NCBI GenBank assembly: GCA_009783145.1
Contig: WRHR01000001.1
Span: 64,492-128,491, forward strand
Source: Alphaproteobacteria bacterium
Lineage (GTDB): Bacteria > Pseudomonadota > Alphaproteobacteria > Rs-D84
DNA: 64,000 nucleotides
Direction of reading: 5' to 3'
The notes beneath the pieces were generated by a model, which did not search any database, had not been told where the DNA came from, and saw only the letters and a list, made by a program, of their open reading frames with translations. The translations under genes were made by a program, and so were the position numbers. This document shows, piece after piece, positions 8,047-59,645 of the stretch (position 1 is the first letter of the stretch; each line of letters opens with the position of its first letter).

Positions 8047-8065
8047 AGTATGATTATACGAAATT

Positions 8066-8204
8066 ATCGTGCAAGTGCAAGTGGTTCGTGCAAGTGCAGG
8101 TGAGTTAGTGCAGCAATATATGTTGTCCTTTATAATGGACAATGTTATTCATATTCTCTAAACCACCTTGCACCTGCACCTGCACTTGCACCTGCACGGC
8201 GAGC
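8066..8204. repeat. Tandem-repeat-arm element A (hexamer arms, TGTCC core)
   Basis: Left arm of GTGCAA/GTGCAG hexamers (8068-8113), centre TTGTCCTTTATAATGGACAA (8123-8142, one mismatch from a palindrome), right arm of complementary CTGCAC/TTGCAC hexamers (8166-8197). It fills the divergent region between ruvX and gatC, so it must contain or displace their promoters. It is followed by GGCGAGCAAAGCGAGCA, also found after the similar element at 35006-35076. Confidence 0.8.
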
Positions 8205-8219
8205 AAAGCGAGCATAACA

Positions 8220-21735: not shown

Positions 21736-21966
21736 GTAGGTTTGTATACCTATTATCCGTTATCCGTTATCCGTTATCCGTTATTCGTTATTCGTTATTC
21801 GTTATTCATGAATCCCGAATTACGAATCGTTAATGGATGGCTTAGCAAAAATCATTGCCGTTCTAGTATACTAGAACGGCAATGATAAAATAGAATGTAC
21901 ATTATAATGGACATTGTAAGAGCGGAACATGTTTTCGCCCCTACGATTCACGAATAACGGATAACG
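21736..21966. repeat. Tandem-repeat-arm element C (heptamer arms, TGTCC core, 36-bp palindrome)
   Basis: Left arm of ATCCGTT/ATTCGTT heptamers (21751-21807), a perfect 36-bp palindrome at 21851-21886 (halves ATCATTGCCGTTCTAGTA), core ATGTACATTATAATGGACAT (21895-21914) and a right arm CGAATAACGGATAACG (21951-21966). It occupies the whole gap between the nlpD-like gene and the glycosyltransferase operon. Confidence 0.85.
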
Positions 21967-21967
21967 A

Positions 21968-23422
21968 TCACTTCAGCTCTTTCTGAGGATTATACGCCTT
22001 CGTGCCTTTGCGGATTTCAAAGTGCAATTGCGGCTCGACAACCTTCCCCGTGTTTCCGACAGTTCCGATTCTTTCGCCGATGGCTACTTTCGCGCCGCGC
22101 TGCACATGCATGATGTCAAGGTGAGCGTAAACCGTCATCCAACCGTTGGCATGCTGAACGATGACCAGGTTTCCCATTCCTTTCAGCTCGTTCCCGGCAT
22201 AAGCCACGACGCCCGCTTCGGACGCCTTGACGACGGTGCCGATGGCAGCGCCTATATTTATCCCGTCGTTATAAAGGCCGTTCGCCTTGTATCCAAAGTC
22301 GGATAAGATCTTGCCGCGCACCGGCCAGGCGAATTTCATCTGCGCTTTGGCGGCAACCGCGGGCAAGGGTTTTGTCGGCGCGCTGGATATTTTCTTTTTC
22401 TCTTCGACTATTTTTGCGGCGTTTCTTCTCTGCCGCTGTTCCAACTCCTGCTTTTGTTTTTCTGCATCGATCCTTTTCTTTTCCGCTTCCTCTTTCTTCT
22501 TTGCCGCTTCCTTTTGCTGTTTTTCGGTTTCAGCTTTCTTGGCGGCTTCCTCGGCCTTCTTCTTCTCTTCTTCTATTTTTTTCTTTTCGGCTTCCAGTTT
22601 TTGTTTATCCGCCTCTATCTTCTTATTCTCGGCGTTCAGTTTTTCAAGTTCCCTCAAAGCATCCTCGTTCTGTTTGGCGCTTTGCGCGGGCGACGCGGCA
22701 TCGGAGGTTGCGACAATCTTCGCGGGCAAGCGAAGCTTTTGCCCCACATTCAGCGCATAAGGCGCGGATAAATTATTTTCCGTCGCCAGAGAGTTCAAAT
22801 CCACCGAATACGCGCGGCTGATGGAATACAGAGTGTCGCCGGCAACTATGGTATGCATGCGCGCGCTCGGCAGCTTTAATTTCTGGCCGACCGAAATCGC
22901 ATAAGGCGCGGCCAATGCGTTCGCGTCGACAAAATCGCGCAGGGGGACATCGTGCTTTTTCGAGAGGGAATAAACGGTGTCGCCTTTTGCGACAATTATA
23001 TCGCCGTTTGCGGGCGCGACGATTTCTGGCTTCGCGTCGTTCTTTGCGGCGCGAGCCGGAACCAGCAAGACATCGTCAGGCTCGGGCGGCGGCGCAGCTG
23101 CGGGTGCAGGTACGGGTTCCGGTTTGGGTTCGGGCTTTGGTTCGGGTTTCAGTTCGGGCGCCGCAACTTTGGGCTCCGGCTTTGCTTGCACCTGTACGGG
23201 CATCACATAATCGTTTTTACTAGAACGTTGGATATAATCATCCCCAGCCTCTATCTGAATATACTCGTCCGTGCTGATGCTATTGCCGTATTCAAAGGCT
23301 TTGTTTTCAACCGGAACTGGTTGCGAATAAGACTCGCCGCCGGCAATTCTCTCGTGCAAGTCACATGCGCCAAGGGCGCATAAGGCACAGAGCATAGAGC
23401 ACAGAGCATAGATTTCTTTCAT
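21968..23422 (-). CDS. LysM-M23 lipoprotein (NlpD/DipM-like, degenerate LytM)
   Basis: 484 residues. Lipoprotein signal peptide ending LGAC (Cys20); its hydrophobic core YALCSMLCALCAL is encoded by a heptamer array. Proline-rich region (80-115), two LysM domains (about 141-185 and 189-233) for peptidoglycan binding, a long Lys/Glu coiled coil (about 250-350) and a C-terminal LytM domain. The late HxH (PQLHFEIRKG) and YAHLD are present, but the first Zn ligands are replaced: GLYNDGINIGA where active enzymes have HxxxD. This is typical of NlpD/EnvC-type amidase activators rather than hydrolases. TATAAT ends nine bases before the ATG, so the mRNA may be leaderless. Divides the envelope block from the glycosyltransferase operon. 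Confidence 0.85.
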   Translation of the reverse strand: MKEIYALCSMLCALCALGACDLHERIAGGESYSQPVPVENKAFEYGNSISTDEYIQIEAGDDYIQRSSKNDYVMPVQVQAKPEPKVAAPELKPEPKPEPKPEPVPAPAAAPPPEPDDVLLVPARAAKNDAKPEIVAPANGDIIVAKGDTVYSLSKKHDVPLRDFVDANALAAPYAISVGQKLKLPSARMHTIVAGDTLYSISRAYSVDLNSLATENNLSAPYALNVGQKLRLPAKIVATSDAASPAQSAKQNEDALRELEKLNAENKKIEADKQKLEAEKKKIEEEKKKAEEAAKKAETEKQQKEAAKKKEEAEKKRIDAEKQKQELEQRQRRNAAKIVEEKKKISSAPTKPLPAVAAKAQMKFAWPVRGKILSDFGYKANGLYNDGINIGAAIGTVVKASEAGVVAYAGNELKGMGNLVIVQHANGWMTVYAHLDIMHVQRGAKVAIGERIGTVGNTGKVVEPQLHFEIRKGTKAYNPQKELK

Positions 23423-26058: not shown

Positions 26059-26701
26059 AATAGCTATCGCCGCCGGAGGTGGTCACCGTTTTGTGCCTCT
26101 GAATCTGGAAATAATTTTTCGCGAAATCCGTCTTGGTCTTCAGCCCCAAGAATTTCACATCGGTCTTCACGCCGGTCGCATCAAGCACAGTCCAAGAGTT
26201 CAACCGCACAGGCGAGTTATCGAAAACCACATTCATATTGCCAAGCCCCTCGCTGCCCTTGATATGCATCTTCAGCGAAAAAGTATCCTTTCCGGCGTCA
26301 GTTTCGGTTACAACGATATCCGCCGTTCTTAAATCTATATTCTTGCGCACAAGAATTCCCGCGGGAGTGCTTGTCAGCGGCACGGTTGTGATCTGATCCA
26401 ATGATTTATCAAAGAAATACAAATCCTTGCCGTCGGAGATTAATTGCACGGGGGCCTTTTTATAGTCCAGCCTTACGCGCCCGGGACGCAGCATCGCGAA
26501 AGTCCCGCTATCGGTCTTTCCGCTCGACACCTGCGAAAACTCGCCCGCCAATCCGGTAATTGAGTTCAGATAAGTCTCGGCTTTTTTCACCAGCGCATCA
26601 TCCACCGCTGCGTTCGCTTCGCTAGTGTATATTGAATAGTGTATAGTGAATAGTGAAAAACTAATCGCTAATATCTGAAAAAGTTTTAATTTTATTTTCA
26701 T
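26051..26701 (-). CDS. lolA: Outer-membrane lipoprotein carrier protein LolA
   Basis: Periplasmic chaperone that carries lipoproteins from LolCDE to the outer membrane. 216 residues. The mature part has the family pattern ETYLNSITGLAGEFSQVS, GTFAMLRPGRVRLDYKKAP, LISDGKDLYFFDKSLDQIT and LKTKTDFAKNYFQ. The signal peptide is unusual: the hydrophobic core FSLFTIHYSIYT is encoded by heptamers TTCACTA/TACACTA, the left arm of element E, with cleavage after EANA. So a repeat array supplies an essential export signal. Confidence 0.88.
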   Translation of the reverse strand: MKIKLKLFQILAISFSLFTIHYSIYTSEANAAVDDALVKKAETYLNSITGLAGEFSQVSSGKTDSGTFAMLRPGRVRLDYKKAPVQLISDGKDLYFFDKSLDQITTVPLTSTPAGILVRKNIDLRTADIVVTETDAGKDTFSLKMHIKGSEGLGNMNVVFDNSPVRLNSWTVLDATGVKTDVKFLGLKTKTDFAKNYFQIQRHKTVTTSGGDSYYE

Positions 26702-28488: not shown

Positions 28489-28550
28489 TACACATATCTT
28501 TTTTTTATTATCGAAACAATTATAAAACAAAAAATCACATATTGCTAATT

Positions 28551-28580
28551 AAAAACAAAATCGCGCTGAACGCGCGACAA
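28551..28580 (-). terminator. Terminator after the ftsI 3'-element
   Basis: Minus strand TCGCGCG-TTCA-GCGCGA followed by TTTTGTTTTT. A matching TCGCGGC..GCCGCGA-TTTTGTTTTT hairpin follows copy 2 of the same element at 41060-41090. The flanking AT-rich stretch 28489-28550 shows no other feature. Confidence 0.8.
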
Positions 28581-28596
28581 AAAATTAGATTGTTTC

Positions 28597-28694
28597 TCTA
28601 TGTTAGGCCGGCTTGCGGGGGATTTTGACCCCGTAGTGTATAAATAATACATGAGGGGTCAAAATCCCCCGCAATGCGGTTTCGGACAGGTAAA
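28597..28694 (-). ncRNA. Structured 3'-element, copy 4
   Basis: Directly after the ftsI stop. TTTACCTGTCCGAAACCGC.., perfect stem TTGCGGGGGATTTTGA../..TCAAAATCCCCCGCAA, apical part CCCC-TCA-TGTAT-TATTT-ATACA-CTAC-GGGG. The TCA/CTAC internal loop matches copies 1 and 2 while all stems differ and still pair. Confidence 0.6.
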
Positions 28695-30329
28695 TTATTG
28701 AAAGAGGAGCGGCATGATGCCGTCCATTATGGCACCCGCAGTCGGGGCCGAATTCCAAGCGGCCGTGCGCCAGCCATGAGTTTCCTCGGTCCCCTTCGGC
28801 TCGTCCAGCAACACCATCATGATATATTGCGGGGATTCTATCGGAAATACGGCGGTAAAGCTGGTCAGGTTTTTTTTGGTGTCTATTTTTCCATTCACGC
28901 GCTTTTCAGCCGTGGCGGTCTTGCCCCCGATATTGATGCCTGCGACGCGCGCGCTGCGCCCTCCCGTGGTTTCCGCAATCTTGAACAATATTTTTCGTAC
29001 GGCGTCCGATATGGCGGGCGATACGACTCGCGCTCCCGACATTTCGCCGATGGGGCGCTTTATAATCGTGGGCTCTACATAAAATCCGTTCACGACCGAA
29101 TTTATACCCAGCAGCAGATGCATGGGCGTCACGGCTATGCCATGGCCGAACGAGACCGTGGCGCGTTCAACCGGGCCCCACTTCTGCGGCATCAGGGGCT
29201 TTTCCGTCCGGCCGAATTCCAGATCCAGCGGCCTGTCCATATTCAGCCTTTCAAAAAATTCCCGCTGAGTATTTTGGGGCATATCCAGCGCGATCTGCAC
29301 TGATCCCACGTTGCAGGAATGAAGCAGAATCTCGGCGACGTTCAAATGAGGGCGCGGAGGCTTGAAGCTGGGTACGTCGCGTATCGGCGGAGCAAGCTGA
29401 CGGCCGCGGCTATCCATAATCTTATAAGGCTCTTTTATATAATACTGCTTGTCCAGCCCTATTCCCGTCTCCATCGCCATGGCAGTGTTGAAGACTTTGA
29501 AGATGGACCCCAGCTCGAAAACGCCGCGGATGGGATAGAACATGCGGCTCTGCATCGAATCGGATTCGCGGTCTTCGGGATCAAAGTCCGGCAATGACAC
29601 CATCGCTATCATCTCGCCGGTGCGGGAGTTCATCAGCATGCCCATTGCCGCGTGCGCGCCGAATTTTTGCATGGCGCTCGACAGCTCGCGATAAAACACC
29701 GTCTGAATCCGCGCGTCGATGGACAAAACCAGCGGGCTTTTGTTCTCGCGCAAATATAGGTCGCGCGATTGCTCCACGCCTTCCAAGCCATGACCGTCCG
29801 TGCCGATAAAGCCCACCACATGCGCGGTCAGGCGCCTTTTCGGGTACTTGCGCCATTCGGTCTCTTCTATGCCAAGGCCCTCTATGCGCGCGGCCTTGAC
29901 CATGGCGCGCTGCGACTCGCTCGCGAACTTTTTCAAGTATATGAATTTCTTGCCGGAACGTATAAGCGCCAAAGCCTGCTGCACCGAATATTCCGGCAAT
30001 ATGTCATGAATGGACGCCGCGGCGTAATCGAAGTCCTGAACCTTGCCCGGACGCAGGGCGATATGGCCGCTGATTATGTTCTTTGCCAGAATCTCGCCAT
30101 TGCGATCCAAAATGTCGGCGCGCGCGTACTCCCAAGAATTCTGCCCCACCCCTATGCGGGTGCGGCTGGTGCCCTGAATCCCCAATTTCAGAGTCCAGGC
30201 TATAAAAACAACGAACACTATAGTGAAAACGGAATAAACAAAGCGCAGCCGAAGACCTGCGTCCGCCGTCGTCGCGCCGACGCCGCCGCACCCCCTGCTT
30301 TGTAAAATATCGCGCCCCACTTCGAACAT
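28695..30329 (-). CDS. ftsI: Peptidoglycan transpeptidase FtsI (PBP3, class B)
   Basis: Septal transpeptidase. 544 residues: cytoplasmic N-terminus, one membrane helix (about 29-48), PBP dimerisation domain from ARADILDRNGEILAKN, and transpeptidase domain. Active-site motifs: SIFK (Ser275-Lys278), SCN (338-340), and a third motif KTA (470-472, in GGKTATAEK) where nearly all class B PBPs have KTG. Gene order ftsL-like then ftsI supports the identity. The third-motif change could alter beta-lactam binding. Element F separates it from ftsL; structured element copy 4 lies at its 3' end. Confidence 0.92.
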   Translation of the reverse strand: MFEVGRDILQSRGCGGVGATTADAGLRLRFVYSVFTIVFVVFIAWTLKLGIQGTSRTRIGVGQNSWEYARADILDRNGEILAKNIISGHIALRPGKVQDFDYAAASIHDILPEYSVQQALALIRSGKKFIYLKKFASESQRAMVKAARIEGLGIEETEWRKYPKRRLTAHVVGFIGTDGHGLEGVEQSRDLYLRENKSPLVLSIDARIQTVFYRELSSAMQKFGAHAAMGMLMNSRTGEMIAMVSLPDFDPEDRESDSMQSRMFYPIRGVFELGSIFKVFNTAMAMETGIGLDKQYYIKEPYKIMDSRGRQLAPPIRDVPSFKPPRPHLNVAEILLHSCNVGSVQIALDMPQNTQREFFERLNMDRPLDLEFGRTEKPLMPQKWGPVERATVSFGHGIAVTPMHLLLGINSVVNGFYVEPTIIKRPIGEMSGARVVSPAISDAVRKILFKIAETTGGRSARVAGINIGGKTATAEKRVNGKIDTKKNLTSFTAVFPIESPQYIMMVLLDEPKGTEETHGWRTAAWNSAPTAGAIMDGIMPLLFQ

Positions 30330-30334
30330 TTTTT

Positions 30335-30467
30335 TAGTCGTTAGTCGCTAGTAACTAGTCGCTAGTAGCCATATGCAACAAATAGAAATGTCCATTATAA
30401 TGGACAACAATCATATTGTTACTAGCTACTAGCGACTAGTTACTAGCGACTAATGGTATCTCCATTG
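30335..30467. repeat. Tandem-repeat-arm element F (TAGTCGC heptamers, perfect core)
   Basis: Left arm of TAGTCGC/TAGTAAC heptamers (30335-30368), perfect 18-bp palindromic core TGTCCATTATAATGGACA (30389-30406), complementary right arm (30418-30454) and a small palindrome AATGG-TATCT-CCATT. The right arm encodes the last residues and stop of the FtsL-like protein. Confidence 0.88.
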
Positions 30468-30729
30468 CATTTATGTTTTTCTTGAATCCGATTGATTCGA
30501 ACCGCGGATACATTTCGGCGACGACGCTGCGCAAGACTTCGGGCCGGACCAGTCCCGCCAGCCGCGCCTGAGCCTCGGCCGTTTCCTGCTGAGTGCGGAC
30601 TATGCCGGCGTTCGCCCGCGCGATCGCTCTGCTCTGCGCGCGATAGCACACCTGCAGGCTGGCCCCGATAACGAACATAGCAGCCAACAGCCCAACGCCC
30701 CATCCGAAAATCTTTTCATCATCTTTCAT
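30436..30729 (-). CDS. ftsL: FtsL-like cell-division protein
   Basis: 97 residues, topology N-in with one membrane helix (WGVGLLAAMFVIGASLQVCY) and a following heptad-type coiled coil (QQETAEAQARLAGL). Sequence similarity to FtsL is weak, as usual for this family; the call rests on size, topology and position directly before ftsI. FtsL links FtsB/FtsQ to FtsWI in the divisome. The last residues (LVASN) and stop are encoded by the tandem-repeat arm of element F, so the native C-terminus was probably altered. Confidence 0.7.
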   Translation of the reverse strand: MKDDEKIFGWGVGLLAAMFVIGASLQVCYRAQSRAIARANAGIVRTQQETAEAQARLAGLVRPEVLRSVVAEMYPRFESIGFKKNINAMEIPLVASN

Positions 30730-31415: not shown

Positions 31416-32449
31416 TTTATAACTTTCTTTATTATCTGCGCGACCTGATCCATCTCTTCGACGGTGTTCCAAGGCCCTGCGGAAATTCGTATAGTGGAGT
31501 CCAGCCCCAGCCGTTGGTGCAGCCAGGACGCGCACATGTTTCCGACGCGCAGGCAAACCCCATGCGCGCCCATCATGGCACCGAAATCATAAGCATGCAT
31601 TCCATCAACAATAAAGGTCAGCAACGCCGCACCCGCCGGCGATATAAATTTAATTCTATCGATCTTCTCCAATTCTCCGCGCAAATAATTTATCTTATCT
31701 ATGCTCTGTGCTCTATGCTCTATGCTCTCCGCTAACGCAGCTGGCAAACCTGCCAGCTGCGTTAGCGGTAAAGTTCCCGCTTCGAACCGCGAGGGACCGG
31801 TCGCTTTGAATTGCCCGCCGCCGAACTTGTCGGTCTGCCAGCGGTCAGGCTCCTTTAAATATAAGATGCCCAGCCCCGTATCGGCGCCAATCTTGTGTCC
31901 GGAAAAAACCAGCGCATCTGGGGCCATTTCCGCCACATTAATCTTTTCATGCGCGACAAGCTGCGCGGCATCTATAATCGTGATTCGCTTTTTATCCTTT
32001 ATAATCTTCTGCGGAACGCCCAATACATTAGACATGGCCGTAATAACAGCCGCGTCGCATTCCGGAACGGACTTATAATCAAAGTCTTTATCCAATTCGC
32101 ATAATACGGTTTTATGCTTTTCTTGCATCGGAAGCCGTGCGGAGTGATGATCCAGATCGGAAACCGCGACGACTGATTTTGGGGGCAACATATTGGCGAT
32201 TCTATTAAGCCCGTCGGTCGCGCCGCTTGTAAATATTATTTGTTCCGGACCAGCGCTGATAAATTTGGCAACCGCCAAGCGCGCGGTCGCAACCATGCGG
32301 TCGGCGTAATCCGCACGCTCGCATACTCCGCGCCCCGAATTCGCATAATGATTCTGCAGAAAATCAAGCTGGGCGTCTATTACGGACTGTGGTTTTAAAG
32401 CGCTGGCGGCCGCATCTAAATATAAGACTTCTTTCTTATTTGGCAACAT
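31412..32449 (-). CDS. sufS: Cysteine desulfurase SufS (NifS-like)
   Basis: PLP enzyme that converts cysteine to alanine and passes sulfur to SufE. 345 residues, some 50 fewer than usual SufS, the shortfall mainly at the N-terminus. Visible: YLDAAASALKPQSVI, FTSGATDGLN, DLDHHSARLPMQ, internal-aldimine Lys in FSGHKIGADTG, and the catalytic Cys in VGNMCASWLHQ. Residues around LAESIEHRAQSIDK are encoded by a heptamer array bounded by a perfect 18-bp inverted repeat (31699-31768). Start of a sufS-sufT-sufE-ftsL-ftsI run. Confidence 0.92.
   Translation of the reverse strand: MLPNKKEVLYLDAAASALKPQSVIDAQLDFLQNHYANSGRGVCERADYADRMVATARLAVAKFISAGPEQIIFTSGATDGLNRIANMLPPKSVVAVSDLDHHSARLPMQEKHKTVLCELDKDFDYKSVPECDAAVITAMSNVLGVPQKIIKDKKRITIIDAAQLVAHEKINVAEMAPDALVFSGHKIGADTGLGILYLKEPDRWQTDKFGGGQFKATGPSRFEAGTLPLTQLAGLPAALAESIEHRAQSIDKINYLRGELEKIDRIKFISPAGAALLTFIVDGMHAYDFGAMMGAHGVCLRVGNMCASWLHQRLGLDSTIRISAGPWNTVEEMDQVAQIIKKVIK
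31699..31768. repeat. Tandem-repeat arm plus flank palindrome inside sufS (element G)
   Basis: Heptamers ATGCTCT/GTGCTCT (31699-31728) then a perfect inverted repeat CCGCTAACGCAGCTGGCA-AACC and its complement (31729-31768). Only one array is present. Confidence 0.8.
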
Positions 32450-34012: not shown

Positions 34013-35005
34013 ATGAAAAAGCGCTATGAAATTATTTTGCTTGATACGTTATGGCTTGCCGCTATGGTGCTGTTTGCAAGCTTTTGGTTCGATATCCGTT
34101 TCGGCTTTAATATCTTTTCCTCCTCTCATTGGCATTTCCTGGCCACAGCGCAATTGACGCCCGGCGGAGTAATGCCTTTGTTTTATATCTCTATGGCCGG
34201 ATTTGCGGCGGCAACAATCGTTGGGCTTTATTTTATAAGCCGGCCTCGTTTGCGGAAAATTAATCTGCGCGCGCCTGCCTCGGCCCCGCACAGCGGGGAC
34301 GGGCCTGCCGGAAAACTTCCAGAGCAACTGCAGCCGACGGCGCCGGACCCAAGCTATTCGCCTCTGGCGACGCCGCAGCCCCTGCCCCGCCCTCCGCGAA
34401 TCATCAGCCCGCTTGCAGCGCAAAGAAAGCCGGCGCCGGCCCCAAGCGCGGCGCCGATGAAAGCCATTCCGGAACAAGTTGCAGAGCTGAGCGGCGGACA
34501 AGAAAAGCTGGAAGAAATATTCAAAGCAGCGGGATATATAGCAAAGCAACCCCCAAAGGTCGGAGGGCTTAAGCTGAACCTGTGGGCAATAGGCTCGGAC
34601 GAAGTTCTGTATATGGGAATCGCGGATCCGCATGGCGGCGAAATCACGGCGAATGAAGGCGGCGAATCCAAATGGACTTTCGGCGGGCGCGATTTCACCA
34701 GCCCCGTATGGAAAGTATCCGGTGCGGCCGAGAAAATCCGCGCGCTGTTTTCGGAAACTTTGGATTCGGAAATACAGATAACAGTAAAGCCGTTCGTCGT
34801 TATGAATGATGCAAATATAATAAACCGCGCGTCAATGTCACGCATATGGGAAGCATTCGGCGTGGATGTATTCGACAGTATGGGCGCGCTGCAGGAATTC
34901 ATGAAGAACTATAAGAACCGGGAAATAAAAAGCGAGGAACAGGAAGACTTCAACGCTTATTCGGAATACATAGACACAGTGGCGAACTACTTTAACAAGA
35001 CGTGA
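34013..35005 (+). CDS. Hypothetical membrane protein with Pro-rich linker
   Basis: 330 residues, not recognised. Two membrane helices (about 9-25 and 52-75), a proline/alanine-rich linker (about 85-150) and a soluble cytoplasmic C-terminal domain (about 155-330) containing LKLNLWAIGSDEVLYMGIAD, GESKWTFGGRDFTSPVW and KPFVVMNDANIIN. First of three same-strand hypotheticals separated by tandem-repeat elements. The layout resembles accessory proteins of secretion or conjugation systems, but no such genes adjoin it, so no function is claimed. Confidence 0.6.
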   Translation: MKKRYEIILLDTLWLAAMVLFASFWFDIRFGFNIFSSSHWHFLATAQLTPGGVMPLFYISMAGFAAATIVGLYFISRPRLRKINLRAPASAPHSGDGPAGKLPEQLQPTAPDPSYSPLATPQPLPRPPRIISPLAAQRKPAPAPSAAPMKAIPEQVAELSGGQEKLEEIFKAAGYIAKQPPKVGGLKLNLWAIGSDEVLYMGIADPHGGEITANEGGESKWTFGGRDFTSPVWKVSGAAEKIRALFSETLDSEIQITVKPFVVMNDANIINRASMSRIWEAFGVDVFDSMGALQEFMKNYKNREIKSEEQEDFNAYSEYIDTVANYFNKT

Positions 35006-35076
35006 ATGTGCATGTGAAAGTGCAAGTGAATGTAAAAACACTTTCACATTCACTTTCACGGCGAGCGAAGCGAGCA
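35006..35076. repeat. Tandem-repeat hairpin (hexamer arms)
   Basis: GTGAAT/GTGCAA hexamers, short centre, complementary TTTCAC/ATTCAC hexamers, then GGCGAGCGAAGCGAGCA, the tail also found after element A. No TGTCC core. Confidence 0.75.
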
Positions 35077-35078
35077 CT

Positions 35079-35585
35079 ATGCAACACAATCAGACGTCAG
35101 CCCAAAAACGGCTGACAGATCTTTTTATGGACGATATGCCCGTGATGGAAGTCGCGGCAAAGCCGCATCCGGTAGCAATCGATTGGTTTGCAAAATATAA
35201 AGCTCTGCGTCGGGAGTTCATGAAAAGCCTTTCGGATTCCATAGAAGACTTATCGTTCCTAAACCTGTCGCGGGAAGAATTCATGGCGCTGATAATGGGG
35301 CAAGCTCTCCCTGAGAATATGTCTCTGCGCCTGCGCGTGCCGCTTACATTAGGAGGAAAGCTGGAAATCGATAACATGTTCGCATGCAAGACTTTCCCGC
35401 ACGCGATAAATTTGGATAGGTTTATCATAGAGCAGGCAAACGCGGCGACTCTGTGGCTGCCCAACCCCGCAAGAAAGATTTATATCCCGGCGCATACTAC
35501 GGGCGGCGGAGACGGCGGAAACGCGACCTCGGACCGCTTATCGCAGATGGCGGCGCAAATCGCGGCAGACAGAGGAATGGAATAG
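35079..35585 (+). CDS. Hypothetical protein
   Basis: 168 residues, not recognised; no signal peptide or membrane span. Helical first half (AKYKALRREFMKSLSDSIED, NLSREEFMALIMGQALPEN), then a beta-rich part (MSLRLRVPLTLGGKLEIDN) resembling toxin-like nuclease or ADP-ribosyl folds only loosely, and a Gly/Asn tail. Sits between two repeat hairpins downstream of the membrane protein and upstream of a SUKH-like protein. Confidence 0.55.
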   Translation: MQHNQTSAQKRLTDLFMDDMPVMEVAAKPHPVAIDWFAKYKALRREFMKSLSDSIEDLSFLNLSREEFMALIMGQALPENMSLRLRVPLTLGGKLEIDNMFACKTFPHAINLDRFIIEQANAATLWLPNPARKIYIPAHTTGGGDGGNATSDRLSQMAAQIAADRGME

Positions 35586-35586
35586 A

Positions 35587-35655
35587 AAATTTACGATTTA
35601 AGATTTACGATTTGTTGGGAGTAAAATCGTAATTCGTAATTCGTAAATCGTAAAT
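35587..35655. repeat. Tandem-repeat hairpin (TTACGAT heptamers)
   Basis: TTTACGA/TTTAAGA heptamers on the left, ATCGTAA/TTCGTAA heptamers on the right, about 13 bases apart. Fills the gap before 35661. Confidence 0.8.
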
Positions 35656-35660
35656 AAAAA

Positions 35661-36104
35661 ATGACTAAAGACGAATTTTTATCTTGGACGAAATCCGCAG
35701 GGGCAACAGCATTGCCGACGGTAAAGGACGCGCAAATCGCGCCGGTGCAGAACGCGCTGCAGCAAATGCAGGCCGCGATGATTCCGATGGCCTTCATAGA
35801 CTTTTATAAAACCGCCGCCGGAGGAATGTATCTGGGGGATGCGCATATTTTCGGATTAGAGGAAATTACGCGCGGCAAGCAATCCGTATATTTCATTCCG
35901 GGAATATTGCAGGTGAATCGCGACATCGGGGGATTGGCGCATATGCGGGGCCGGGCGGTGTTCGGGCGCAACAGTTTGTTCTGGTTCGCGTTCGATGCGT
36001 TCGGGAATTGCTTTATGCTGAATAACATGACCTTGACGCCGATGCGGCAATACGAAGATATTTATAAAGCGATGAACGATTGCCTTGCCATAGGCAAAAT
36101 ATAA
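35661..36104 (+). CDS. SUKH/YrhA-like protein
   Basis: 147 residues. IPMAFIDFYKTAAGGMYLGD and HIFGLEEITRGKQSVYFIPG match the N-terminal pattern of SMI1/KNR4 (SUKH) domains, in which a helix plus FYxxxGG is followed by a Phe-Gly-Leu-Glu strand; FGRNSLFWFAFDAFGNCF is the usual W/F-F core. SUKH proteins are often immunity factors against polymorphic toxins, and YrhA-type members are stand-alone. No toxin gene is seen next to it, so the immunity role is only a possibility. Confidence 0.65.
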   Translation: MTKDEFLSWTKSAGATALPTVKDAQIAPVQNALQQMQAAMIPMAFIDFYKTAAGGMYLGDAHIFGLEEITRGKQSVYFIPGILQVNRDIGGLAHMRGRAVFGRNSLFWFAFDAFGNCFMLNNMTLTPMRQYEDIYKAMNDCLAIGKI

Positions 36105-36108
36105 CTGT

Positions 36109-36220
36109 CACCTCCCCCAAAGAATGGGGGAGGAAAGAGTTGGCTTATCGGCGACCCCGGGCCCCACCGAAATCATAGATTTCGGTGGGTGGGTGCCGAT
36201 TAGCAACTCTTGGAGAGGGC
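36109..36220. repeat. Twin-hairpin repeat with a nested palindrome
   Basis: CCTCCCCC..GGGGGAGG hairpin, then AAAGAGTTGGCTTATCGGC paired with GCCGATTAGCAACTCTT and GGAGAGGG. Inserted in its loop at 36154-36195 is ACCCCGGGCCCCA-CCGAAATC..GATTTCGG-TGGGTGGGTG, the same small palindrome family as at 45556-45595. Confidence 0.7.
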
Positions 36221-36223
36221 TGA

Positions 36224-38094: not shown

Positions 38095-40197
38095 TCACTT
38101 CCGTTTTCTGCGCAGAATCGCGATACATAAAATTGAAAACGCCAGTATGATCGCCATCATCCAGTCGCGCCCGATATAACGATAAGGCGTCATATGCGCG
38201 GCACCCACCGTGCCGTCCAGCGCGCCCGCAAAGCCAATGGGTATACTGGAAACAACATGCCCGTCCGCGCCGATAAAGGCGGAAATTCCGGAATAGTTCG
38301 CGCGCACGACGGGAAGTCCCATCTCTATTGCCTGGCGCCGCGCCATATCAAGATGCTGATAAGTTCCGGGCGTGCGCCCGAACCAAGTATCATTGGTAAG
38401 ATTCACTATGGCTTGCGGATTCGTCCCACGCGGTACTAGTGAATCACTAAATATAATCTCATAACAAATAGCTGGAACAAAATTAATTGCTAATTGCTCA
38501 TTGCTAATTGCTAATTGCGTGGCGCCCGCGCCACGCGACAGTTGCCCCGGAGTCGGGATAATATCGCCCAGCGGGCGGTATTCGCCGAACGGCACCAGAT
38601 GCGATTTCGAATAGATGTTTTCAATCTTTCCATCCGCATTCGCGACAATCATAGAGTTATAAAAACTTCCGTCCCGCCAACTGGTCGCGCCGATTATGAT
38701 GGGCCGCCCTAGTTCGCGCGCCAACGGTAAATCATCGCCTTCCTGGCGGATCACAAAAGGATATACCGTTTCAGGAAAAACTATTATATCGGGATTCCCC
38801 GGCGCCTGCGCCAACTCCGCCAGTTTCTGAATATTTTCATTCGCATTAGCGATCGCTTGCTCGCGCGAGTGCGTGGCCTTTTGCTCGGCGCTTCGCGCAG
38901 GCTGAACGATTCGGATTACCGGACGATTGCAACTGCCTTTGCAGAATTCAATACTGCCCAATATATTCCAGTAACCATATCCGATTCCAATAATTGATAA
39001 CGACGCAAATATTCCAGCATTAATAAAATTACCTTTTGCTTTTCTGCTGATGAAAAATTCAGTAATGCTTGCGGTAAATCCCACGATTATAAATGTCAGC
39101 CCCAGCGCGCCCCATAAAGACATGCTGTTGCTGAGCGCTGGAAACGGCATGGTAATATTGGCAACAGGATTCCAAGGAAAACCCGTCAGAAACCATTCTC
39201 GCAACCACAGCACCGCCGTCCAAGCGGCGGCGAATAAAATCGCCCGACCCCGCGGCGGCGTCCATCGACGGCGAAGAGCTAAAAACGGGAGCGAGAAAAC
39301 CAGCGCGCCTCCTATTGCAATCCCGATAATCCCCGGGATGGTCCAAATCGCGAACTCGGCAGCCAATTCCGGCACCACATATATAGAGTTCAAAACCCAC
39401 CAAAAGCTGGCTACGGCATACGCCGCGCCGAAGAGTATAGAGTAAAGCACAGATTTATCCGATCGTTTTGTAACCAGATAATACGCCCCGCCAATCCCCA
39501 GTATTGTCGCCCACCATAAATTGAACGGAGCAAACCCAAGCGAAGCTACCGCTCCGCAGAGCATAGAGCATAGAGCATAGAGCATAGAGTTTTTCCAACT
39601 TATTTTATCTTTGCTCTTTGCTCTTTGCTCTTCGCTCTGACAATTCGCCAAAGGCGAATTGTCGTACGGTTTTTTTATCCCCAGCTGCGCGAGAATCCTG
39701 ACTTCCAGCGCCTCCATCGTGCGCGCGTCCTTGTCGTCGCAATGATCATAGCCCAGCAAATGCAGAACTCCATGCACGATAAGATGGGTGGCATGGTCTA
39801 TAAAATTTTTATCTATGCTCTGTGCTCTATGCTCTATGCTCTCTCGTTTGACGGAGTCAAACGAGATATAAATATCTCCCATCAGCTCCGCATCGCCGGT
39901 CTCGAACGAGAGGACATTAGTCGGCGTATCTTTGCCGCGGTATTTTTTGTTCAGCTTTTGAATTTCCGGGTCATCGGTAAGAATAATCGAAACCTCGCGG
40001 CTTATCTTCCCGAACGCCGCGCCCACACCTACGCTGGGCATCCAAGGAGCAATCGTCCAGTTTGATTTTTTTATTATGTCTTCGGTCTTGTCGTTCGCCA
40101 TCGCGGCGCGCATGGCCACATTCACAATATGCGCGAAATCAATCCGGTATTTATCCCACCGGGAATCGTTAATTGTGATAAATGTTTTTACAGACAT
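38095..40197 (-). CDS. YbeY endoribonuclease - Lnt apolipoprotein N-acyltransferase fusion
   Basis: 700 residues. Residues 1-175 are YbeY, the 16S rRNA maturation/quality-control RNase, with its zinc motif VHGVLHLLGYDH (His142, His146, His152). Residues about 205-700 are Lnt, which N-acylates lipoproteins: six to eight membrane helices and a nitrilase domain with Glu in FPETVYPF, Lys in YSKSHLVPFGE and Cys in ICYEIIF. The two are normally separate, often neighbouring, genes. The junction (about 176-215) is encoded by element L, and the YbeY part carries another array (SIEHRAQSID, about 120-130). Start 40197 follows TTGCAA-N17-TATAAT by six bases with no ribosome site: leaderless. Confidence 0.9.
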   Translation of the reverse strand: MSVKTFITINDSRWDKYRIDFAHIVNVAMRAAMANDKTEDIIKKSNWTIAPWMPSVGVGAAFGKISREVSIILTDDPEIQKLNKKYRGKDTPTNVLSFETGDAELMGDIYISFDSVKRESIEHRAQSIDKNFIDHATHLIVHGVLHLLGYDHCDDKDARTMEALEVRILAQLGIKKPYDNSPLANCQSEEQRAKSKDKISWKNSMLYALCSMLCGAVASLGFAPFNLWWATILGIGGAYYLVTKRSDKSVLYSILFGAAYAVASFWWVLNSIYVVPELAAEFAIWTIPGIIGIAIGGALVFSLPFLALRRRWTPPRGRAILFAAAWTAVLWLREWFLTGFPWNPVANITMPFPALSNSMSLWGALGLTFIIVGFTASITEFFISRKAKGNFINAGIFASLSIIGIGYGYWNILGSIEFCKGSCNRPVIRIVQPARSAEQKATHSREQAIANANENIQKLAELAQAPGNPDIIVFPETVYPFVIRQEGDDLPLARELGRPIIIGATSWRDGSFYNSMIVANADGKIENIYSKSHLVPFGEYRPLGDIIPTPGQLSRGAGATQLAISNEQLAINFVPAICYEIIFSDSLVPRGTNPQAIVNLTNDTWFGRTPGTYQHLDMARRQAIEMGLPVVRANYSGISAFIGADGHVVSSIPIGFAGALDGTVGAAHMTPYRYIGRDWMMAIILAFSILCIAILRRKRK
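38483..38536. repeat. Heptamer array and palindrome in the lnt part (element K)
   Basis: ATTGCTA heptamers (38483-38517) then CGTGGCGC-CC-GCGCCACG (38518-38535); encodes QLSRGAGATQLAISNEQLA in Lnt. Confidence 0.75.
39558..39663. repeat. Tandem-repeat-arm element L at the YbeY-Lnt junction
   Basis: Heptamers AGAGCAT (39558-39589), spacer, complementary TTGCTCT heptamers (39605-39638), palindrome GACAATTCGCC-AAA-GGCGAATTGTC (39639-39663). In frame throughout; encodes the linker between YbeY and Lnt. Confidence 0.85.
39812..39866. repeat. Heptamer array and palindrome in the ybeY part (element M)
   Basis: ATGCTCT/GTGCTCT heptamers (39812-39841) then TCTCGTTTGAC-GGA-GTCAAACGAGA (39842-39866). 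Confidence 0.8.
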
Positions 40198-45414: not shown

Positions 45415-45516
45415 ATCATTCCTCTTGTTATATAAGGATATTATATCATAAAAATCAAAAGAAAGAAATAAAAAGTGGTGGGAAATACACGCCCCAACCA
45501 AAAATCAAATTATTCA

Positions 45517-45687
45517 CATTCAATGGGTCAAATGTGCGTTGGGGGGGATGGGGCGCACCCACCCACGGAAAACTTTGTTTTCCGCGGGGCCCGGGAAGCG
45601 TACAAAGATGTACGAGAGCCCCATTCCACTACGCACAGGTGATTTCCGGCCTGTCCGCCGTAGCCTTGGCGTAGGCGGATGAGGTAA
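45517..45687 (-). ncRNA. Structured 3'-element, copy 3, invaded by two palindromes
   Basis: Directly after the stop of the small lipoprotein gene. It keeps CGGAAATCACC, the stem, CGTAC-ATCTTT-GTACG and CATTTGACCCATTGAATG. At 45556-45595 the apical loop is interrupted by a CACCCACCCAC../..GGGGCCCGGG palindrome, and at 45648-45684 the base is interrupted by a CCTTGGCG palindrome. Confidence 0.62.
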
Positions 45688-45825
45688 TTACTTCGGAGTA
45701 TTGCCGAAATTCGGCGGAACTATCAGCTTATGATTCTGTTCCACAATCGGCTCTTTCTCGCAGTTGCAGCAGCCGGCAACAAAGAGCAAAGAGCAGAGAG
45801 CAAAGAGCAAAGATAATTTTTTCAT
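45688..45825 (-). CDS. Small lipoprotein (45 residues)
   Basis: ATG 45825, stop at 45688. MKKLSLLFALCSLLFVAGC is a lipoprotein signal peptide with lipobox VAGC; the mature part is CNCEKEPIVEQNHKLIVPP and ends NFGNTPK. The hydrophobic core is encoded by TTGCTCT heptamers (45781-45812). AAAGGAAATGTC before the ATG supports translation. The LIVPPNF motif resembles the start of DUF3035/BamF-type lipoproteins (inference from a short motif). Small, but signal peptide, lipobox, ribosome site and 3'-element all point to a real gene. Confidence 0.72.
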   Translation of the reverse strand: MKKLSLLFALCSLLFVAGCCNCEKEPIVEQNHKLIVPPNFGNTPK

Positions 45826-45883
45826 GACATTTCCTTTTTTTATTTTTACAATTTTTTATTACGAAAGCGGGGTCGCAGTTCCC

Positions 45884-45990
45884 CTCCTGTGGAGGGGTGG
45901 CCGCAGGCCGGGGTGGTTCTTGTAATGCGCGAATATTAAACGAACCACCCCGTCGGCTTCGCCGACACCCCTCCACAGGAGGGGAACACC
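45884..45990. repeat. Twin-hairpin REP-like repeats, inverted pair
   Basis: CCCCTCCTGTGGAGGGG-TGGCC-GCAGG..GGGGTGGTTC facing GAACCACCCCGTCGGC..GCCGACACCCCTCC-ACAGGAGGGG. Sits just after thrS; probably a bidirectional structure. Confidence 0.7.
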
Positions 45991-47784
45991 CTATTCCGGC
46001 ATTTTCACTGCTTCGTGCATACCGCGCACGAATTCCAGCAGTGATTTCGTTTCTTGCGCCTCGATGCCGAGATAGCGCAAAGTCACGGTTCCGTCGGCCG
46101 CTTCCTTTTCGCCTACGACTGCGATTATCGGGGTCTTGGCCAGCGACAGCTCGCGAACCTTGTAATTCACTTTCTCCGCGCGAAGGTCCGTCCGCGCCCG
46201 TACGCCGACCGCGTTCAGCTCCGCCACGACTCGCTTTGCATAGTCATCATACTTTTCTGAAATTGGGGTAACCACGACCGGTTCGGGCGACAACCACAGC
46301 GGCAGATTCCCACCGGTATTTTCCAACAGAATTCCCATGAACCGCTCTATAGACCCCAGCATGGCGCGATGCAGCATAATTGGGCGATGTTTCGCGCCGT
46401 CTTCACCAACATAGGACAAGTCAAATCTTTCAGGAAGATTCATATCCAACTGAACCGTGCCGCACTGCCATATCCGACCCAACGAGTCTTTAAGATAGTT
46501 GTCTATCTTCGGGCCATAGAACGCGGCGTCTTGCGGCGCGACTTCATATGAAATTTTGTTTTTCTCCAGCGCGTTTTTCAATGCGCCTTCGGCCTTGTCC
46601 CAAGTCGCGTCGTCGCCGATACGAAATTCGGAATCCTTTCTTGTCGCCAGTTTCATAGATATATTATCAAACCCGAACTTGGAATAGATATCCTTTATAA
46701 AGCGAAGGACTTTTATGACTTCTTCCTCCAATTGCTCGGCGGTGCAGAATATATGCGCATCGTCCTGAGTCATTTCTCGCACGCGCATCAAGCCATGCAG
46801 CCCGCCGGCAGCCTCGTATCTATATACCTTTCCGAACTCCGCCAGATACAGCGGCAGGTCTTTATAAGACTTTATGCCCTGACCGAACACCAGCATTCCG
46901 CCGGGACAAGACATAGGTTTTACGCAAAAAGTCCGCCCGTCTTCGGTCTGTCCGGAATAGTTATGCTCGCCGTATTTCGCCCAATGGCCGGATGTTTCCC
47001 ATAAAGACCTGTCCATAAGTCCCGGTGTGGAGATTTCCAGATAGCCGGCTTTTTCCTGGCGCATGCGGACGTATTCTATCAAGCGGCGGTAAATCTTGTA
47101 ACCCTTGTCATGCCAGAAAACCGAGCCTGGGGCATATTCCGACTCGAAATGAAACAAGTCCATCTCGCGGCCCAGCTTTCGATGATCGCGCTTGGCAGCC
47201 TCTTCCATCATATGCAAATGCGCATCCAATTCTTCGCGTGAAGCAAAAGCATCTACATAAACGCGCTGCAGCATTTTGTTTCGCGAGTCGCCCTTCCAAT
47301 AAGCGCCGGCGACACTGCGAATTTTAAACCCGTCTTTGGGCAGCTCTTTGGAAGACTCCACATGCGGCCCGCGACACAAGTCGGTAAATCCTCGAAAATC
47401 ATAAATAGAAAGGTTGGAGGTTGGAGGTTGGAGGTTGGAGGTTGAATCATCTTTACCTCCTACTTCAAACTTCCTACCTCCTACCTCTTCGACCCATTCC
47501 ATTTTAAAAGGCTGACCGGCGAATATTTTTTTCGCTTCGTCCAAGGATACCTCGCGCCGTTCAAACCGGCCAGCCGATTTGATTAGCTCCCGCATTTCTT
47601 TTTCGATTTTCGGAAAGTCTTCTTCGGTAATTCTGTGTTCCAGGTCAAAGTCGTAATAGAACCCGTTTTCGATGGCGGGCCCTCCGCCGAACTTTACGTC
47701 CGGCCACAGCTTTTGCACCGCCGCCGCCAGAACATGAGCCAGCGAATGGCGGATAATTTCTATATCGTATTTATTTTCTGACAT
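45991..47784 (-). CDS. thrS: Threonyl-tRNA synthetase, lacking the TGS domain
   Basis: 597 residues. It begins in the second (editing) region at IIRHSLAHVLAAAVQKLWPD (HxxxH zinc/editing motif), omitting the N-terminal TGS domain; typical ThrRS has about 640 residues. The editing Cys region is TDLCRGPH, and the class II core shows Zn ligands in CVKPMSCPGGMLVF and ligand His in the anticodon-side core, motif 2 VYRYEAAGGLHGLMRVREM and motif 3 GSIERFMGILLE. The anticodon-binding domain closes it. Residues about 101-125 (STSNLQPPTSN) are encoded by a heptamer element at 47411-47489. Confidence 0.94.
   Translation of the reverse strand: MSENKYDIEIIRHSLAHVLAAAVQKLWPDVKFGGGPAIENGFYYDFDLEHRITEEDFPKIEKEMRELIKSAGRFERREVSLDEAKKIFAGQPFKMEWVEEVGGRKFEVGGKDDSTSNLQPPTSNLSIYDFRGFTDLCRGPHVESSKELPKDGFKIRSVAGAYWKGDSRNKMLQRVYVDAFASREELDAHLHMMEEAAKRDHRKLGREMDLFHFESEYAPGSVFWHDKGYKIYRRLIEYVRMRQEKAGYLEISTPGLMDRSLWETSGHWAKYGEHNYSGQTEDGRTFCVKPMSCPGGMLVFGQGIKSYKDLPLYLAEFGKVYRYEAAGGLHGLMRVREMTQDDAHIFCTAEQLEEEVIKVLRFIKDIYSKFGFDNISMKLATRKDSEFRIGDDATWDKAEGALKNALEKNKISYEVAPQDAAFYGPKIDNYLKDSLGRIWQCGTVQLDMNLPERFDLSYVGEDGAKHRPIMLHRAMLGSIERFMGILLENTGGNLPLWLSPEPVVVTPISEKYDDYAKRVVAELNAVGVRARTDLRAEKVNYKVRELSLAKTPIIAVVGEKEAADGTVTLRYLGIEAQETKSLLEFVRGMHEAVKMPE
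47411..47489. repeat. Tandem-repeat-arm element N (GGTTGGA heptamers) inside thrS
   Basis: GGTTGGA repeated (47411-47443), short centre, complementary CCTCCTA/CTTCCTA heptamers (47455-47488); in frame, between the editing and catalytic parts. Confidence 0.82.
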
Positions 47785-47807
47785 TTATTTTGCCTTTTAA
47801 AAATGTT

Positions 47808-47938
47808 TTTGTCATTCCCGCGCAGGCGGGAATAGGGTCCAGACAGTGCGAGCGTAAGCGAGCCATATATTGTGGTCGTGCTTCGCACGACGAGTTTAAG
47901 CCCTATTCCCGCCTGCGCGGGAATGACAAAAGGTTATT
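47808..47938. repeat. Long inverted repeat (GTCATTCCCGCGCAGGCGGG type)
   Basis: GTCATTCCCGCGCAGGCGGG..AATAGGG and its complement CCCTATTCCCGCCTGCGCGG.. about 75 bases apart, with CGAGCGTAAGCGAGC and CGTGCTTCGCACGACG hairpins inside. A widespread type of dispersed bacterial repeat. The rest of 47785-48147 is AT-rich and holds the promoter of the next gene (TTGACA-N16-TATATT, about 48099-48126). Confidence 0.75.
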
Positions 47939-48147
47939 ATTTTTATTGATTATAAAATGAACGCGAGAAATTCGCAATAGAAATTAGACCCCCAAAGGGG
48001 TTGTGGTCGTGAAAACAGCAATATTAAGGCCCAAAATCTTCATAACTTTTTAATCATATCAGGAAAACTCAAAAAATCAAGCCCTTTGACAAAATACTTG
48101 ACAAAAGGCCTTGATGTGCTATATTTGCCCAGCCAAAAGGATGATTT

Positions 48148-52203: not shown

Positions 52204-52938
52204 ATGGAAAAACAAGAAATAAGAACTTTCGGGCGGGTTCGCGGGAAAAAGCTTTCCGCCCGCCAGCAATGGCTGGTGGATAACTTGTTGCCGGAACTGG
52301 CGCCCACCGGCCCTGACCCCGACCCCAACATCATTCTAGAAATCGGCTTTGGGGCTGGCGAGCATCTGCTGCACCTGGCAGCCGCGCACCCCGACAAGTT
52401 GATAATAGGCGCCGAGCCCTTTATAAACGGGGTCGCGTCATTGCTGTCGCAAATGACGCAGAGCACAGAGCATAGAGCACAGAGCATAGATAATGATAAT
52501 TTATTAAATCTCATCAAACCCGAGTATCGCAATATTAGAATTTGGCCTGATGACGTGAGAAAGCTTTTTACTCTTTCACTCTCTCGCTCTTCTACTCTGC
52601 AAAATCCAGGTTTGCGCTTTGCGCAGATCTGGATTTTGCATCCCGACCCTTGGCCCAAGACAAGGCATGAAAAGCGCCGTTTATTGAGCGCAGAGTTTTT
52701 GGAATTACTGGCCGGCCGTCTTGCCCCCAAAGGCCTGCCGCCCGAAGCCTCGGCGAAGGGCGGGCAAATTATAATCGGAACCGACCATTACGAGTATTAC
52801 GATTGGATTTTGGAACAGGTAAAAAAAACACGCCTAACGACTAGCGACCAGCGACTAGCGACTATTGATACCCGCTACCAGCGCAAGAACAAGGCGGGGA
52901 CGGCCGAGCCAAAGTATTTAATCCTAGGAAAAGCCTAG
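52204..52938 (+). CDS. trmB: tRNA (guanine-N7-)-methyltransferase TrmB
   Basis: Forms m7G46 in tRNA. 244 residues. SAM site IILEIGFGAGEHLLHL (about 43-58), the signature WILHPDPWPKTRHEKRRL (about 143-160) and GTDHYEYYDW. Four segments look inserted: TQSTEHRAQSID (about 86-97), LFTLSLSRSSTLQNPGL (121-137), GLPPEASAK (177-185) and TRLTTSDQRLATIDT (209-223); each is encoded by a tandem array or palindrome, so this one enzyme has absorbed four repeats in frame. -10 TATACT ends six bases before the ATG: leaderless. Convergent with the lysozyme gene. Confidence 0.93.
   Translation: MEKQEIRTFGRVRGKKLSARQQWLVDNLLPELAPTGPDPDPNIILEIGFGAGEHLLHLAAAHPDKLIIGAEPFINGVASLLSQMTQSTEHRAQSIDNDNLLNLIKPEYRNIRIWPDDVRKLFTLSLSRSSTLQNPGLRFAQIWILHPDPWPKTRHEKRRLLSAEFLELLAGRLAPKGLPPEASAKGGQIIIGTDHYEYYDWILEQVKKTRLTTSDQRLATIDTRYQRKNKAGTAEPKYLILGKA
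52455..52872. repeat. Four repeat insertions within trmB
   Basis: AGAGCAY heptamers (52455-52497); ACTCTTTC-type octamers (52569-52597) joined to TGCAAAATCCAG..CTGGATTTTGCA (52598-52640); GC-rich palindrome GGCCTGCCGCCCGAAGCC..GGGCGGGCA (52733-52768); CGACTAG heptamers (52836-52872). Confidence 0.82.
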
Positions 52939-55923: not shown

Positions 55924-55929
55924 CAAACA

Positions 55930-56100
55930 AACTGGATTGCTTCGCTTCGCTCACAGTTTTTGTTTGCTGGATTGCTTCGTCGCTAACGCTCCTCGCAATG
56001 ACAATTCGGTATTTGTTCTGAGCTGTATGCCCTGTTTCTGTTCTCCCTTGTCATTGCGAGCGCAGCGAAGCAATCCAGTCAATAACATCGCGCGAAGCGC
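55930..56100. repeat. Facing dispersed repeats (TGGATTGCTTCG / CGAAGCAATCCA)
   Basis: CTGGATTGCTTCGCTTCGCT, CTGGATTGCTTCGTCGCTAA..CTCGCAATGACA and, inverted, TGTCATTGCGAGCGCAGCGA..AGCAATCCAG. A common genome-wide repeat type; a relative lies between secD and secF (62765-62820). No gene in 55924-56124. Confidence 0.75.
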
Positions 56101-56124
56101 GACACAAATCGTAATTACTAATCT

Positions 56125-59401: not shown

Positions 59402-59452
59402 ATTTTCACCCTTTGTTTATGAAAGAATTATATCACAAAAAGGGAAAAAGTA

Positions 59453-59645
59453 AAAGTAGGAAGTAGAAAGTAGGAGGTAGGAGGTAGGAGGTAGGAGGTT
59501 TAAGGTGAAAAGTTATCTTTATCATTCTAGACCGATAGAACAAAAAGCATAAAATACGTTGTCTATTATAATGGACATCTACTTCCTACCTCCTACTTCC
59601 TACCTTCGCGGACCTTATCGTCGCGCAGCGACGATAAGGTCCGCG
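59453..59645. repeat. Tandem-repeat-arm element H (GTAGGAG heptamers, TGTCC core)
   Basis: Left arm of GGTAGGA/AGTAGGA heptamers (59453-59500), core TTGTCTATTATAATGGACA (59559-59577), complementary right arm (59579-59604), then a 17-bp perfect palindrome GCGGACCTTATCGTCGC-GCA-.. (59608-59644) that encodes the end of the PAP2 protein. Confidence 0.85.

Follow-up and report, generated by a model that had tools for sequence, protein, structure and literature searches.

A dispersed palindrome at the centre of variable-armed hairpins and at the borders of gene cassettes in reduced alphaproteobacterial genomes: a candidate attachment site with promoter and operator features

The window analysed here, a 64,000-nt stretch from an alphaproteobacterium of the order Rs-D84, whose members are described as having reduced genomes and probably living as obligate symbionts or parasites (PMC12306168), carries four elements in which a near-constant palindromic core, TGTCCATTATAATGGACA, lies among inverted arrays of hexamers or heptamers. 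The original prediction had named four such elements with a nearly constant centre, and all four were found: the window holds four copies of the core, one perfect and three with one mismatch each, against 0.03 expected from shuffles. Single-strand folding gave z = -10.8 for 30330-30470 and z = -5.6 for 8064-8206. The predicted layout, a core enclosed by complementary 6- or 7-nt repeats, holds for the inverted arms, but in the element at 21736-21966 the core is off-centre, with a second palindrome (P2) to its left. The features are listed below, none with an assigned strand; G001 denotes a second genome of the same genus.

8066-8204: element 1, GTGCAG-type hexamer arms (8067-8112 and 8164-8197) around the core
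8124-8141: core of element 1, TGTCCTTTATAATGGACA
21736-21966: element 2, TTATCCG/TTATTCG arms; contains the second palindrome and the core
21853-21884: second palindrome P2 of element 2, CATTGCCGTTCTAGTATACTAGAACGGCAATG; its TTCTAGTATACTAGAA centre occurs 12 times in the genome
21896-21913: core of element 2, TGTACATTATAATGGACA
30334-30467: element 3, TAGTCGC-type heptamer arms (about 30334-30370 and 30420-30452)
30389-30406: core of element 3, TGTCCATTATAATGGACA, perfect
35002-35059: core-less inverted hexamer hairpin (GTGAAAGTGCAA); 35002-35078 spans 77 bp here and 6 bp in G001
35589-35655: core-less inverted heptamer hairpin (ATTTACG); 35576-35658 spans 83 bp here and 8 bp in G001
39558-39638: core-less inverted heptamer hairpin (AGAGCAT), in frame within a 705-aa ORF
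47411-47487: core-less inverted heptamer hairpin (AGGTTGG), in frame within a 597-aa ORF
59447-59605: element 4, AAGTAGG-type heptamer arms (59447-59499 and 59579-59605); decayed P2 and core
59560-59577: core of element 4, TGTCTATTATAATGGACA
59944-60072: core-less inverted heptamer arms (ATAGAGC / TCTGTGC), from repeat finding

Searching the whole genome of this bacterium (G000; 947 kb, 0.95 Mb, in 24 contigs) for the 18-bp core with inverted arms, as had been proposed, returned the core at 41 places with at most two mismatches and at none for a reversed-pattern control. In a set of 42 sites that includes core variants, the left and right arms of the same element paired better than all of 420 shuffled pairs at 31 sites, and the mean local score of the left flank against the reverse complement of the right was 20.2 for an element's own arms, 10.3 for arms swapped between elements and 8.0 after shuffling. 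The four-element observation is real and genome-wide. In the window, a repeat finder alone detected 31 arrays with units of 6-8 nt, forming eight inverted pairs, seven of them core-less; the palindromic family envisaged around the core exists, but its arms are not specific to the core, and the four elements are part of a wider population of heptamer hairpins. Some arms have no core, and some cores have no arms.

The core was found nowhere in G001. At the syntenic positions, element 3 (30329-30466) measures 138 bp in G000 against 38 bp in G001, and element 4 (59440-59649) 210 bp compared with 87 bp. Over the syntenic 40 kb, G001 has four arrays and no inverted pair, and arm arrays reach 4.8 per 10 kb in G000 against 1.0 in this sister genome. 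Coding sequences contain such insertions as well: one full element with its core lies in frame within uvrC, where it accounts for some 32 extra residues between conserved blocks relative to the UvrC nuclease domain 3c65; xerC and xerD of G000 contain in-frame arm sequences that are not present in the G001 proteins; and heptamer stretches run in frame through window ORFs of 705, 597 and 340 aa. With regard to MITEs, which have conserved terminal inverted repeats and a target-site duplication, the elements have inverted ends of non-conserved sequence, and a duplication is not resolvable against a relative of about 70% identity. Other long palindromic inserts missing in G001 (55923-56125, 47765-47967, 45818-45991, 45455-45686, 36103-36223 and 28534-28693) are of the types CTGGATTGCTTCG...CAATGACA, TGTCATTCCCGC...GCGGGAATGACA and CCCCTCC...GGAGGGG, or GC-rich hairpins.

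A lone element consists of an arm, about 20 bp, the core, about 20 bp and an arm. Conserved, asymmetric sequences border the core on its two sides (GCAACAATA...T before the core, ATGTTATTCATATTCTCTAAACC after it), so the element has polarity, and the same asymmetric centre stands within different arm families (TTAGCAA, ACGCGAA, TAGTCGC, GTGCAG, AAGTAGG, TTAACAA, TAATGAC and others). Paired changes preserve the palindromy of the core: G000 has ATTATAAT, TTTATAAA and AATATATT centres, and further paired changes yield a ACTATAGT centre or turn TGTCC...GGACA into TGTCT...AGACA, the general form across genomes being TTGTCYNNTATANNRGACAA, with a length of 18-20 bp. Two pairs of elements at different places are 92% identical across 118-121 bp, and identity stops at the arms; because elements of one arm family are near-identical over this length with arms included, the arms travel with the centre, and what is copied is the whole unit of about 120 bp, arms and all. 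The gene context of the 42 sites (24 tandem, 8 convergent, 7 divergent) gives lone elements no bias towards promoter positions. A few cores are flanked by A- and T-tracts like bidirectional terminators.

The TTCTAGTATACTAGAA palindrome of P2 lies beside the core in several elements and once replaces it between heptamer arms. The second dispersed palindrome, TTTGCTATTCTAGTATACTAGAATAGCAAA, occurs in G000 at L210, L211, L212, L213, L027 and L021 (12 sites) with heptamer arms or none; at L211 it takes the core's place between GAATCGT-type arms, and in G198 (L104) it sits beside a core. Other genera (L140, L041, L052, L180, L054 and L104) have TGTCTATTATAATAGACA and a core 32-33 bp apart between heptamer arms, a spacing of about three helical turns, as if two protein dimers were bound on one face.

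The element L021_5456 bears on the origin of the arms. Its right half is 92% identical to L018_1506 and 56% to L014, whereas its left half is 70% identical to L014 and 61% to L018_1506, so that it joins halves of two arm families at the core. Growth of the arms, or their replacement by copying, would fit this joint, the shared centre in different arm families and the denser arrays in G000. Because an element's own arms agree far better than the arms of different elements, we infer slippage of 7-nt units combined with hairpin-templated correction, which would keep both arms complementary while their turnover is fast. Elsewhere in the window, a perfect GC-rich hairpin directly follows or precedes a lone heptamer arm and stands where its partner arm would be (31698-31728, 38484-38518, 39812-39842 and 52459-52490), and heptamer arrays lie just within the 5' ends of genes (45780-45813, also present in G001, 23385-23412 and 26623-26657); CTATGCT-family arrays at gene 5' ends encode hydrophobic LCSMLC-like stretches that are possibly part of signal peptides.

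The palindrome also borders genes. On contig 15 of G000 (L033) the order is arm, core, helix-turn-helix (HTH) gene, core, chorismate mutase gene, core, AAA gene, core and inverted heptamer arm, that is, three genes and four cores; locus L099 of G008 has two genes (Nmad3 and HTH) with three cores, and L101 of G002 one methyltransferase-like gene with two cores, the downstream one facing a convergent gene and driving none. These counts, which rest on three clear arrays, follow an n genes, n+1 cores layout into which lone elements fit as zero genes and one core. G012 has 14 cores of TTTATAAA type, at least 11 of them within 16 kb of one contig, and among the 24 cores of G013 almost all that are listed belong to the AATATATT type; each array keeps to one core variant, and the variant changes from array to array. 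The HTH cassette is common to three genera (G000, G008 and G012) at 75-77% DNA identity with different neighbours, and its homology in L033 (1516-1917 and 1521-1914) ends within 13 bp of the cores at 1529-1546 and 1896-1913. Gene orientation in arrays is mixed, which fits a symmetric site. Other ORFs between or beside cores encode Nmad3, SDR, APH-type kinase, TfoX_N, Nudix and GNAT proteins, a range well known from integron cassettes. One ORF, in L168 (3923-4228), begins like a GNAT protein and finishes with the final residues of the HTH protein (GNPEFVTILRLLNLFDIKLAAEAR); it looks like the scar of a deletion within a cassette array.

The outer ends of arrays in other genera are formed by conserved sequences at different genomic places, S (13 aligned copies with a sharp common outer boundary) and E (three copies). 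S ends also occur with no adjoining core, matched no plasmid or phage, and were not found at the G000 loci examined, where heptamer arms stand in their place. A 16-kb island in G012 (L093/L094, G012:C34:112.6-128.8k) is bounded on either side by S-core modules in inverted orientation, contains further cores, and may be a composite mobile element. At the L033 position G001 has a 1031-aa collagen-like gene instead, with no clean empty site, and at the place of the G002 cassette synteny with other genomes is broken. Among these genomes, all draft assemblies with one per species, in which repeats can be misassembled, we saw no circular cassette, no strain-level gain or loss and no locus both with and without its cassette.

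All six full HTH loci have TTGTCC/T, a gap of exactly 17 bp, TATAAT and next the start codon, a geometry by which the palindrome overlaps the -35 element of a strong promoter and its spacer; in the average of all cores upstream of a gene, TATAAT matches also peak at a spacer of 17. The HTH protein matches the HI1420 antidote family (Pfam PF21716); a PDB sequence search returned no relative, and no toxin gene was recognised next to the HTH gene. HipB, an HTH antitoxin, binds TATCC-N8-GGATA (PMC3920265), and the palindrome has the same 5-8-5 plan. The altered palindromes TTGTCCACTATAGTGGACAA, TTGTCTAATATATTAGACAA and TTGTCTACTATAGTAGACAA flank the HTH homologues of G197 (two), G196 and G006, which indicates that protein and palindrome vary together, and protein identity declines from 84% with TTTATAAA through 77% with ACTATAGT and 66% with TGTCTAATATATTAGACA to 58% with TGTCTACTATAGTAGACA. 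The HI1420-like HTH protein borne by the cassette probably binds the palindrome. Of the two roles first suggested for the core, recognition gains support from this covariation, from the paired changes that keep the palindrome and from its place at the borders of homologous cassettes in three genera, whereas we saw no sign of a replication site.

Within the family, the TTGTCYNNTATANNRGACAA pattern matches 16 of 183 genomes, in 15 of which its form is palindromic. Six of the 15 palindrome-bearing genomes have strong HTH homologues, and none of the other 168 has one; the near-complete genomes G011 (12 sites) and G002 (two sites) have cores and no detectable HTH homologue. Most of the named records that contain the site belong to Alphaproteobacteria from termite guts, an origin that we take from the isolate names, and some are labelled Rickettsiales. 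About 20 unrelated genomes have a single exact 20-mer palindrome, probably by chance or for other functions, and 31 exact palindrome matches in viral contigs included none like these loci; Rfam gave no match at element, array or S loci. Contigs of Kaiserbacteria/Paceibacterota (L143, L149, L157, L169, L181 and L183) carry TGTCCTTTATAAAGGACA beside TTATCCACA-like DnaA boxes, which may be an origin motif with no relation to the cassettes.

A search of nine genomes for tyrosine recombinases (PF00589) revealed no dedicated recombinase for the core. Those classified in G000 and G002 were XerC, XerD and, in G000, one phage-type enzyme, and neither genome has an integron integrase (best TIGR02249 score 120.6 bits, cut-off 265). 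By elimination among tyrosine recombinases, XerC/XerD would be the only candidate common to the genomes examined. The ends of attC sites follow the consensus GTTRRRY/RYYYAAC; the 42 aligned sites have no such conserved pair and show TGTCC...GGACA instead. Two further identities were considered: a res (Tn3/gamma-delta) site, suggested by the TGTC half-sites, was set aside since these are too close together, and a housekeeping chromosome-organisation site (parS- or SlmA-like) was rejected since the site is missing in G001 and most of the family.

We tentatively favour the reading that the core is a cassette attachment site doubling as promoter/operator and that lone elements are empty sites on mobile hairpins. 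The four window elements would then be copies of a mobile hairpin family of about 120-150 bp, each with one 18-20-bp palindrome at which the cassettes of an integron-like system would attach by recombination. One gene and one palindrome would make up a cassette, its insertion at a palindrome would generate palindrome-gene-palindrome, and the lone window elements would represent the empty state, n = 0. Inside a cassette the palindrome would also act as promoter/operator (TTGTCC as -35, 17 bp, TATAAT as -10), and the hairpin arms would be the element ends in this species, inherited with the element. We favour this reading because of the n+1 layout, the cassette ends at cores, the different neighbours of the shared cassette, the joint of arm families in L021_5456 and the lack of promoter bias; from these patterns we infer recombination at the core, the identity of its recombinase and the mode of arm turnover. 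Several observations weigh against it: the PF00589 search found no dedicated enzyme and leaves Xer by elimination, a symmetric palindrome has no polarity by which orientation could be set, some S ends have no core next to them, G000 has one cassette array and some 35 lone elements, and neither circular cassettes, nor strain-level gain or loss, nor loci with and without a cassette were seen. Moreover, the promoter geometry of the HTH cassettes alone would conserve the palindrome without recombination.

This last point leads to a serious rival, on balance somewhat unlikely, in which the core is purely the operator of an HI1420/XRE-type, orphan antitoxin-like repressor, genes with such operators make up a regulon, and RPE- or MITE-like hairpins acquired the operator and scattered it; the cassette-like borders would be promoters upstream and terminator-like hairpins downstream. 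The promoter overlap just upstream of the start codon in six of six full HTH cassettes, the covariation of protein and palindrome, the HipB-like plan, the PF21716 matches and the confinement of strong HTH homologues to palindrome-bearing genomes all speak for it, whereas G011 and G002 have sites without a detectable homologue, lone elements show no preference for promoter positions, and cassette homology stops at both cores, including a downstream core that drives no gene. We consider it quite unlikely that the elements are instead a new group of selfish hairpins akin to Rickettsia palindromic elements (RPEs), with the core as a transposase or structure site and its use at cassette borders secondary: the palindromic unit of about 120 bp, its copying, its presence or absence relative to G001 and the in-frame insertions in uvrC and other ORFs would be accounted for, but the arms differ completely between subfamilies while the centre stays constant, and the same palindrome organises n+1 gene arrays across genera. 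A chance grouping of unrelated heptamer hairpins with a common palindrome, such as a transcription terminator motif, could draw on arms and cores that occur separately and on the few cores with A- and T-tract flanks, but is scarcely credible; the genome-wide counts (41 against 0) refute it, and 31 of 42 cores lie within arms and the asymmetric inner flanks are conserved.

Genomes below 1 Mb are thought to have few ways of gaining genes, and dispersed landing sites would, if the attachment-site reading is true, supply one. The variable-arm hairpins pose the testable question of how arms stay complementary while their sequence changes completely, and rules of DNA recognition could be read from the natural covariation of the palindrome/HTH pairs.

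Several known systems share parts of this organisation. The heptamer repeats of Beggiatoaceae (TAACTGA) are likewise abundant intergenic 7-nt tandem repeats (PMC4679880), whereas here inverted pairs of several units form hairpins, partly with a fixed centre. HipB/HI1420-type operators share the 5-8-5 palindrome overlapping a promoter and the adjoining HTH antidote gene (PMC3920265); the palindrome described here differs in being scattered in dozens of copies, within hairpins as well as on both sides of unrelated genes, with no recognised toxin gene. As in the pdif (Xer) modules of Acinetobacter plasmids (PMC7399989, PMC11705084), genes are flanked by a short repeated site, no dedicated recombinase was found and Xer is a candidate; the core differs in being chromosomal and does not look like a 28-bp dif site. 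The in-frame insertions resemble the behaviour of RPEs (PMC10969869), which these elements also recall as palindromic mobile elements of about 120-150 bp in housekeeping genes of a reduced-genome alphaproteobacterium; in place of a family-wide conserved sequence over the whole element, the arms are short tandem repeats of several sequences unrelated between subfamilies around a constant core, which also borders cassettes. With integrons (IntI/attC) the arrays share single-gene cassettes between palindromic sites in an n+1 layout, accessory gene content, variable arrays and a site closely behind the stop codon; they differ in having no integron integrase, a perfect symmetric palindrome of 18-20 bp, mixed orientations and promoter/operator use. 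That they form a cassette system of its own kind seems to us rather unlikely. In such a system one perfectly symmetric palindrome would serve for recombination, as promoter and as operator, no integron integrase would take part, and streamlined Alphaproteobacteria, probably symbionts, would have empty sites genome-wide, even in essential genes, on hairpins with fast-changing heptamer arms; if true, it would be an independent counterpart of integrons.
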